NCBI RefSeq assembly: GCF_003253705.1
Contig: NZ_QKYU01000004.1
Span: forward strand, 124,001 to 188,000
From: Humitalea rosea
GTDB lineage: Bacteria > Pseudomonadota > Alphaproteobacteria > Acetobacterales > Acetobacteraceae
Length of the DNA stretch: 64,000 bases
Direction: 5' to 3'
Every line of letters starts with the position of its first letter. Positions within the stretch are counted from its first letter, which is position 1. Below are positions 34,880 through 37,536 of the stretch, piece by piece. The translations under genes were made by a program, and so were the position numbers. Under the pieces are notes generated by a model. That model saw only the letters and a list, made by a program, of their open reading frames with translations. It was not told where the DNA came from and did not search any database.

Positions 34880-35040
34880 GACGCGATAAGGCCGCGCATC
34901 GCCTGAAAGGCGTGGCCCCGCTCACTAAAAGGTGCAAAGCTCAGAAGCATTTTTAGTGCCCCGTTTCTTGTAGGGCCACCCGTCGCGCGCCTGTCTCGCT
35001 TTTCCGACCAGCAACCACGCGACAATCGGGGGGTAAGGCC
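34880..35040. promoter_or_regulatory. AT-richer leader region with two inverted repeats
   Basis: This gap is less GC-rich than its surroundings. An imperfect GC hairpin at 34890-34917 may end the SDR transcript. A second inverted repeat has arms ACTAAAA (34924-34930) and TTTTAGT (34951-34957) with an inner TGC/GCA pair. It could be an operator for the following c-di-GMP gene or a bidirectional terminator. GGGGGGTAAGG at 35028-35038 is the only SD-like stretch before that gene. Confidence 0.45.
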
Positions 35041-37536
35041 ATCGTAGAACAACTCTTTGGGTGGCTGGCCGATTTCTCGGGGCTGGCGCCCCATGGTTAC
35101 CGCCTGCTCTGGGAGCCGTGGCTGATCTGGACCGATGCGCTGAGCGATATCGCCATCGGCGCCAGCTACTACGCGATTCCGCTGGTGCTTCTGTATGCCT
35201 CCCGGCGCCGCCCCGATCTGGCCCATGCGCCGGTCCTCTGGATGTCCGCCGCCTTCATCCTGCTCTGCGGCACGACCCACTGGCTTGATGTCCTGACCCT
35301 CTGGGTGCCGGCCTATTCGACGCAGGTCATCGCCAAGGCCGTCACCGCGGCGATTTCATTCCTCACCGCCGTGACGCTCTGGCGCTTTCTGCCACGGCTG
35401 CTGGCGCTGCCATCGCCGGCGCAGATGCGCGCCGCGAACCAGGACCTGCAACAGGTCGTGCAGGAGCGTGAGAAGGCGCTCGAAGCCCTCCGCGCCAGCG
35501 AAAGGCGCTACCGCGCCCTGACCGAGGTCCGCGCCGGCTCGAGCGCGTTCTGGATCGCCGAACCCACCGGCGCGGTCCGCGAGATGCGTGGATGGGAGGC
35601 GCTGGCCGCCCGCCCCGAGGCGAGCATGCAGGGCCTGGCCTGGATGGGCTCGATCCATCCCGAGGATCGCGCGGCGACCATCGAGTCCTGGAAGCAGGCG
35701 CGGGCGACGCAAGACCCGCTCGATCTGGAATTCCGCGTGGCCACGGGCGGCCAGGGCTGGCGCTGGGTCGGGTCCCGTGGCGTGCCGGTGTTCGACGAGG
35801 ACCAGCGCCTCGTCGAATGGGTCGGCATGATCGAGGATGTGCATGAGCGCCGCCAGGCCACCGAGGATCTGCGCCGCACGCGCACGATGCTCGACCAGGT
35901 GATCAAGAATATTCCGGCGATGATCTTCGTGAAGGACATGAAAACCGGCCGTTTCACCTTCATCAACCGCGCGGGCGAGGAGTTGCTTGGCGTGACCTCC
36001 GCCGCCCTGCTCGGCACCACCGACCATGACCATTTCCCGAAAGAGCAGGCGGATTTCTTCATCGCGCATGATCGGGCGGTCGCCGCCTCCGGCCTGGCAC
36101 AGGTGATCGAGGAAGAGGCGATCGATACGCCGAGCGGCACCCGGCTGCTGCGCACAACCAAGATCCCGATGCCCGGCAGTGAGGGCGGCCCGAACCTGCT
36201 GCTGGGCTTCTGCCAGGACATCACCGATCGCAAGCAGGCCGAGGCGCATATCCGCCACCTCGCGCTGCATGATCCGCTGACCGGCCTCGCCAATCGCCAT
36301 CTGCTCAACGAGAGCATCCGCGAGGCGGCCGCCAGGGGCGCGAGGTTCGCCGTGCTGTGCCTGGACCTCGACGCGTTCAAGCGGGTCAATGACACGCGGG
36401 GGCACGAGGCCGGCGACCGGCTTCTGGTCCAGGTCGCGGAGCGGCTGCGCGGGGTGGTGCGGGAAGGCGATGTCTTGGCCCGCCTCGGCGGCGATGAATT
36501 CGTGATTCTGCAGATGGGCGTGACGGAGCCTGAGGCCGTGACCGCCTATGCCCGCCGCGTGGTGGACGAGATGGCAAGGCCCTTCGACCTGGACCTGCAG
36601 CAGGTGGTGATCGGCGCCAGCATCGGGATCGCCATGTGCCCCGCTGACGGGACGAACCTGCAAGACCTCCTGCGCCACGCCGATACCGCGCTCTACAAGG
36701 CCAAGGCGGATGGCCGGGGCCGGTTCCAGCGCTTCAACACGATCATGAACACCAATCTGCAGGATCGCTACCAGCTCGAAGCCGACCTGCGCGAGGCGAT
36801 CGAGGCCCGCCATCTGCTGCTGCATTACCAACCGATCTGCGACGCCAAGGACGGCGCCATCCTAGGCTTCGAGGCGCTGGCGCGATGGTGCCACCCGGTC
36901 CGCGGCAATATCCCGCCTGGCGTCTTCGTGCCGATGGCGGAGGAATGCGGGCTGATCATCCCGCTGGGCCGCCTGGTCCTGGAGACGGCCTGCGCCGAGG
37001 CGGCAGGCTGGGCCGAGCCCGCCCGCATCGCGGTGAACGTCTCGCCGGCGCAGTTCCGCGTGGAGGATCTGGCGGGCGAGATCGCGGAGATCCTGCGCCG
37101 CACCGGGCTTTCCGGCGACCGGCTGGAGCTGGAGGTCACCGAAAGCCTGATGATCGATGACCCGGAACGGGTGCTGCGGATCATGCTCGAGCTGAAGCAG
37201 CTCGGGGTGCGCATCGCGCTCGACGATTTCGGCACCGGCTATGCCAGCCTCATCTACCTGCGCCGCTTCCCCTTCGACCAGATCAAGATCGACCAGTCCT
37301 TCGTGCGGGGGCTGGACCAGGAGGGAGAGGGCCTGTTGCTGTTCAGCGCCATCCTCAACCTCGGCATCTCGCTCGGGCTCGAGGTCCTGACCGAAGGGGT
37401 CGAGACCGAGGCCCAGCTTGAGATCATCCGGGGCCTGGGGGGCAGGATGGTGCAGGGCTACCTCTTCGGCCGCCCGGGTCCGGCAGCGGAGGCGCGGGAG
37501 CGCCTCGCCCATGGCCACGCCCCCTGTTACCCCTGA
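35041..37536 (+). CDS. Ethylene-receptor-like membrane sensor with PAS-PAS-GGDEF-EAL
   Basis: Predicted membrane regulator of cyclic di-GMP, 831 residues. Three helices (about 28-135) match the plant ETR1 ethylene-binding domain without gaps: D36, Y43, I46, P47, F72, C76 and H80 correspond to ETR1 D25, Y32, I35, P36, F61, C65 and H69. Two PAS domains follow (about 155-280 and 285-400). GGDEF has RLGGDEF at 481-487 and an I-site REGD five residues before it. EAL keeps FEALARW, NVSPAQF, EVTESL, DDFGTGYASL, IKIDQSF and EGVET, so both enzymes look intact. No ATG, GTG or TTG occurs before 35185, which is inside helix 1-2. Homology needs a start near the ATC at 35041, so the true start is unsettled. 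Confidence 0.85.
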   Translation: MVEQLFGWLADFSGLAPHGYRLLWEPWLIWTDALSDIAIGASYYAIPLVLLYASRRRPDLAHAPVLWMSAAFILLCGTTHWLDVLTLWVPAYSTQVIAKAVTAAISFLTAVTLWRFLPRLLALPSPAQMRAANQDLQQVVQEREKALEALRASERRYRALTEVRAGSSAFWIAEPTGAVREMRGWEALAARPEASMQGLAWMGSIHPEDRAATIESWKQARATQDPLDLEFRVATGGQGWRWVGSRGVPVFDEDQRLVEWVGMIEDVHERRQATEDLRRTRTMLDQVIKNIPAMIFVKDMKTGRFTFINRAGEELLGVTSAALLGTTDHDHFPKEQADFFIAHDRAVAASGLAQVIEEEAIDTPSGTRLLRTTKIPMPGSEGGPNLLLGFCQDITDRKQAEAHIRHLALHDPLTGLANRHLLNESIREAAARGARFAVLCLDLDAFKRVNDTRGHEAGDRLLVQVAERLRGVVREGDVLARLGGDEFVILQMGVTEPEAVTAYARRVVDEMARPFDLDLQQVVIGASIGIAMCPADGTNLQDLLRHADTALYKAKADGRGRFQRFNTIMNTNLQDRYQLEADLREAIEARHLLLHYQPICDAKDGAILGFEALARWCHPVRGNIPPGVFVPMAEECGLIIPLGRLVLETACAEAAGWAEPARIAVNVSPAQFRVEDLAGEIAEILRRTGLSGDRLELEVTESLMIDDPERVLRIMLELKQLGVRIALDDFGTGYASLIYLRRFPFDQIKIDQSFVRGLDQEGEGLLLFSAILNLGISLGLEVLTEGVETEAQLEIIRGLGGRMVQGYLFGRPGPAAEARERLAHGHAPCYP

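Follow-up and report, generated by a model that had tools for sequence, protein, structure and literature searches.

An ETR1-type ethylene-binding domain joined to GGDEF and EAL domains in Humitalea rosea

Domain layout and neighbourhood of the gene

The window, a stretch of 64,000 nucleotides from Humitalea rosea (Acetobacteraceae), carries on its forward strand an uninterrupted frame at 35041 to 37536 that encodes a single chain of 831 residues. From the N to the C terminus, Pfam places the domains ETR1_N, PAS_3, PAS_4, GGDEF, and EAL in this chain (Table 1). The ETR1_N match (PF25487) has an E value of 1.3e-30 and scores 105.9 bits against a cutoff of 27, which bears out the original prediction of an ethylene-receptor-type sensor and rules out an unrelated membrane family as the identity of the N-terminal domain. 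The matches to GGDEF (E value, 5.7e-46) and EAL (9.9e-70) are stronger still. No HisKA or HATPase match was found by Pfam anywhere in the protein, GGDEF-EAL standing in the place of the kinase, and because the kinase is missing, the protein is, judged by its domains, not an ethylene receptor kinase.

Table 1. Coordinates of features at the EBD-GGDEF-EAL locus (EBD, ethylene-binding domain)
Feature	Position	Strand	Details and basis
EBD-PAS-PAS-GGDEF-EAL protein	35041..37536	+	831 aa, stop codon included
Putative Shine-Dalgarno sequence, GGGGGG then TAAGG, ahead of the presumed start	35028..35038	+	Sequence reading
ATC codon at the expected start position	35041..35043	+	16 codons ahead of the PHG motif
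Shorter ORF expected from a standard gene caller	35185..37536	+	GTG start, 783 aa, without most of helix 1
ETR1-type EBD	35122..35409	+	Residues 28-123, PF25487; AlphaFold2 helices 26-56, 63-86, 92-121
Helix 1 ligand residues D36, Y43, I46, P47	35146..35181	+	Sequence alignment
Helix 2 residues F72, C76, H80 (C76 and H80, presumed Cu(I) ligands)	35254..35280	+	Sequence alignment
K99, equivalent of ETR1 K91	35335..35337	+	Alignment; role from PMC11819568
Signalling helix (predicted)	35416..35517	+	Residues 126-159, AlphaFold2, block pLDDT 92-98; runs toward first PAS
PAS domain 1 (PAS_3)	35614..35829	+	Residues 192-263, Pfam
PAS domain 2 (PAS_4)	35908..36237	+	Residues 290-399, Pfam
GGDEF domain with RxxD inhibitory site	36262..36720	+	Residues 408-560, Pfam and motif reading
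EAL domain	36781..37476	+	Residues 581-812, Pfam and motif reading

Structure prediction of the sensor (AlphaFold2, alignment of 39 EBDs; mean pLDDT, 87.5) gave three membrane helices followed by a signalling helix. Sequence and fold searches of the PDB with the window EBD returned only chance matches and no solved EBD structure, which fits the account of the membrane domain of ETR1 as a computed model (PMC6586836).

The sequence shows the RxxD inhibitory site, the GGDEF motif, and the motifs usual for EAL domains in intact form. The GGDEF side has REGD-VLARL-GGDEF (474-487) and LDLDAFKRVNDTRGHEAGD (441-459), and the EAL side has YQP (596), FEAL (610), VNVS (665), EVTES (698), DDFGTGY (728), KID (749), EGVE (785), and QGY (805). 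Pfam order and motif reading thus agree with the PAS-PAS-GGDEF-EAL output, with both catalytic sets and the inhibitory site, that had been proposed, and by its domains and predicted catalytic motifs the protein is a hybrid GGDEF-EAL c-di-GMP enzyme. Hybrids with both sites intact can act in either direction, CdgB being one example (PMC9683572), so that the response could be of either sign.

The neighbours of the gene are metabolic: upstream lie an acetolactate-synthase-like enzyme and an SDR, and downstream another SDR and a flavin oxidoreductase. No neighbours are common to this locus and those of its relatives (one of which, L111, was compared with little flank), and no pathway is suggested; a scan upstream of the gene found neither promoter nor terminator. 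The host genome has ten EAL domains; it has neither an ACC deaminase nor a photosynthetic reaction centre that would hint at a niche on plants or in light. It also encodes a second protein with an EBD, an EBD-PAS-histidine kinase (L001, 1423-3045; G000 contig C1, about 221488), which has G in place of D25 and M in place of K91 (ETR1 numbering). It would not be expected to bind ethylene normally because D25 is among the seven residues required in ETR1.

Start of translation

Codon 1 of the frame is ATC, which the original prediction had missed. There is no in-frame ATG, GTG, or TTG from the stop at 34954 up to the GTG at 35185, which is codon 49, and a complete sensor therefore requires initiation at the ATC. 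A start at the GTG would drop D36, Y43, I46, and P47, four of the seven ligand residues, together with most of helix 1. The complete sensor that had been claimed thus stands as far as its residues are concerned but lacks a normal start codon and needs an AUC start. If the ATC arose from an ATG by mutation, translation may begin at the GTG and give a PAS-PAS-GGDEF-EAL protein whose membrane domain is broken, or the gene may be in decay; little or none of the sensor half would then be made. The missing start codons speak for this, as does the presence of a normal start 10 to 24 codons (mostly 14 to 16) ahead of the PHG motif in 136 of 141 relatives. Against it, GC at third codon positions rises from 0.57 just upstream to 0.79 in codons 1 to 48, indicating that the coding signal begins at about 35041; the region is conserved with the relatives through the whole of helix 1, free of stops and frameshifts; and the ATC occupies precisely the place where the relatives start, after a G-rich Shine-Dalgarno-like stretch. 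Taken together, these features favour translation from about 35041, and we consider loss of the sensor half unlikely. The ATC itself could mean that the gene is AUC initiated, that its start has mutated recently, or that the sequence is in error. The genus is represented by a single genome.

The ligand site and the family of fusions

All seven residues needed for copper and ethylene binding in ETR1 (D25, Y32, I35, P36, F61, C65, and H69) are present in the window protein in a gap-free alignment (D36, Y43, I46, P47, F72, C76, and H80), and the distance from D36 to H80, 44 residues, is that from D25 to H69. The original prediction was accurate on this point, and K99 can be added to its list. In the ETR1 sequence used, all seven ligand residues fall on the published numbers. 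From composition, seven of seven residues at fixed spacing would arise by chance with a probability of about 6e-11, although the profile match makes a chance explanation irrelevant. K91 of ETR1 (K98 in AzoEtr1) is the predicted partner of D25 (PMC11819568). In an alignment of 138 distinct EBDs, 95 of which have the complete seven-residue set, K91 is absent in 13 of the 22 EBDs without D25 compared to 6 of the 116 with it (Fisher p, 1.5e-8), but once kinship is considered, only one supported independent pair is left. The joint loss fits the proposed D25-K91 contact, though relatedness may explain it, and we take it as a lead only.

The EBD itself is widespread. It was found in 73 of 397 genomes of the host's family, spread over 33 of 102 genera, in 27 of 385 genomes of a class sample, in 29 of 398 of a phylum sample, and in 18 plasmid records, among them the Azospirillum megaplasmid bearing AzoEtr1, while no EBD was found in phages. 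Judged by its named relatives, the host probably sits close to Belnapia and Roseococcus, in the broadly defined family of acetic acid bacteria. Kinases follow the EBD in 115 of the 138 distinct reading frames and GGDEF-EAL in 4; the remaining 19, with no recognised output, are short, cut off, or divergent. The EBD-GGDEF-EAL architecture is thus uncommon but recurrent.

Several other EBD proteins were noted in passing. Stand-alone frames of 142 to 239 aa without an output domain occur (L124, L132, L121, G905:C2:162692, and G1000:C5:71417). Belnapia species have several EBD kinases each (L041, L042, L044, L045, L047, and L062), most of them with N in place of D25 and with C65 and H69 kept. EBD histidine kinases are also found in the methanotrophs Methylosinus, Methylocystis, and Methylicorpusculum (L051, L052, L053, L054, L058, L061, and L068). 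These organisms are copper dependent and co-oxidise ethylene, and the ligand or the role of copper in these kinases would for that reason be of interest.

The four GGDEF-EAL fusions among the 138 EBDs are the window protein and proteins of Belnapia mucosa T6 (L043), genome G389 (L111), and a Rhodospirillales metagenome bin (L055), the last three confirmed by Pfam. The class sample yielded a fifth (L203, 673-4212), encoded in a 1.5-Mb genome, with a PAS-GGDEF-EAL chain behind a degenerate EBD; having lost the copper cysteine (C65), this EBD should be unable to bind copper in the usual way. At least four fusions besides the window protein therefore exist, two of them with all seven residues, and the architecture is not unique to this genome. 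In a tree of 48 EBDs (125 columns), the window protein groups with L043 and L111 in a single clade (bootstrap, 100; SH-aLRT, 98). The full proteins are 42 to 44% identical over more than 820 residues (44% over 838 residues between the window protein and L111), with a common layout, and we regard them as a small conserved lineage and not a one-off. The two relatives resemble the window protein in domain order as well as in the ligand residues, but they have ordinary ATG starts where the window gene has ATC, L043 is without the RxxD site, and the PAS sequences have diverged. D25 is replaced by N in most of the kinase EBDs nearest to this clade, whereas D is kept in all three of its members. L055, in which N replaces D25 and M replaces K91, groups with kinase EBDs in the tree, and it may nevertheless belong with the other three fusions, for which a single origin is not rejected (p-AU, 0.246). 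With the degenerate L203 included, a single origin of all five is rejected (p-AU, 0.018), and the trees thus place L203 as a separate fusion event.

The losses in L055 and L203 mean that the fusion architecture does not always retain the ligand site, and they lend some weight to a reading in which the EBD chiefly anchors the protein in the membrane and dimerises it, the real signal coming from the two PAS domains that sit between the sensor and the enzymes. An anchor would not need the seven ligand residues, however, and all of them are kept in the window's clade across three diverged genomes, which makes this explanation improbable.

Proposed function and comparison with known systems

Profile, predicted helices, and residues all assign the sensor to the ETR1-type EBD family, and from sequence and model the protein is most likely a copper-dependent gas receptor, probably for ethylene, that sets c-di-GMP within one protein. 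We put the probability of the full scheme, from a Cu(I)/ethylene EBD dimer through PAS to the GGDEF-EAL balance of c-di-GMP, at about 50%. In this scheme, the three-helix membrane sensors would dimerise and hold Cu(I) by C76 and H80; the copper would in turn bind ethylene or a comparable small pi-ligand. The signal would travel down helix 3 and the helix at 126-159 and then through the two PAS domains, shifting the balance between synthesis by GGDEF and breakdown by EAL and, with it, attachment versus motility. Of all this, the analysis establishes what the domains are, which ligand and catalytic residues they keep, how the helices are arranged in the model, and that the fusion lineage is conserved. 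The host would presumably then change its c-di-GMP in response to ethylene. Only tentatively would we extend this to an Acetobacteraceae-type lineage of single-protein ethylene-to-c-di-GMP receptors that operate without a phosphorelay and that, in the host, are AUC initiated.

The same copper-bound, c-di-GMP-controlling sensor could have a ligand other than ethylene: CO, O2, NO, another alkene, or the copper or redox state. MHYT, another copper-using membrane domain found on GGDEF-EAL, senses diatomic gases; it caps CdgB, MucR, and NbdA (PMC9683572), and CO sensing by CoxC needs copper (PMC11347149). Methanotrophs, moreover, carry EBDs without an obvious plant partner. Yet the seven-residue EBDs tested so far, those of AzoEtr1, SynEtr1, and plant ETR1, bind ethylene (PMC11819568, PMC6682694), and Pfam found no MHYT (none at E values up to 1) or other gas domain in the window protein, so that a different ligand appears rather unlikely.

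If ethylene is the ligand, a hormone-type gas would directly set a bacterial second messenger, and a lifestyle switch on ethylene would be possible. In Azospirillum and Synechocystis, ethylene affects biofilm formation by way of kinases about whose downstream steps little is known; the fusion would connect a plant gas to biofilm control in two steps that can be tested and would also provide a ready chassis for reading EBD signalling with a c-di-GMP reporter. Ethylene also raises the cellulose output of Komagataeibacter, where cellulose synthase is activated by c-di-GMP and no receptor is known (PMC4686702).

According to a review, the outputs of bacterial EBD proteins vary (PMC7700396). We found no description or test of a fusion of an EBD to c-di-GMP enzymes in the open-access literature, although subscription reviews or Lacey and Binder 2016 may figure one, and ethylene is not mentioned in surveys of alphaproteobacterial and Azospirillum c-di-GMP proteins. 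The closest characterised relative is AzoEtr1 of Azospirillum brasilense, whose residues 1-130 bind ethylene saturably and which affects biofilm (PMC11819568). The window EBD is 48.7 to 49.6% identical to Azospirillum EBDs, strain Sp7 included, and 49% identical to that of AzoEtr1, which likewise has the seven residues followed by PAS. AzoEtr1 has a histidine kinase as its output and relies on a separate response regulator, in contrast to the GGDEF-EAL in the same chain here. SynEtr1/UirS of Synechocystis and plant ETR1 share the three-helix EBD and the seven residues with the window protein, but their outputs are GAF or cyanobacteriochrome plus kinase, with no c-di-GMP enzyme in the chain.

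On the output side, CdgD of A. brasilense (CHASE-PAS-DGC-EAL) also has a plant-hormone-receptor-type sensor on PAS-GGDEF-EAL, although that sensor is an extracytoplasmic, cytokinin-type CHASE domain and not an EBD (PMC7804937). The MHYT-PAS-GGDEF-EAL proteins CdgB, MucR, NbdA, and YkoW resemble the window layout in that a copper-using gas sensor, proposed or shown, is placed on GGDEF-EAL, while the MHYT domain has seven helices, is unrelated in sequence to the EBD, and has CO, NO, or O2 as its ligands. By analogy, the window protein presumably works like these proteins, in which another kind of copper-using gas sensor is coupled to the same enzymes. ETR1-type EBDs on kinases are known, and the uncommon feature of the protein encoded here is that such a domain is joined, as read from its sequence, to GGDEF-EAL.
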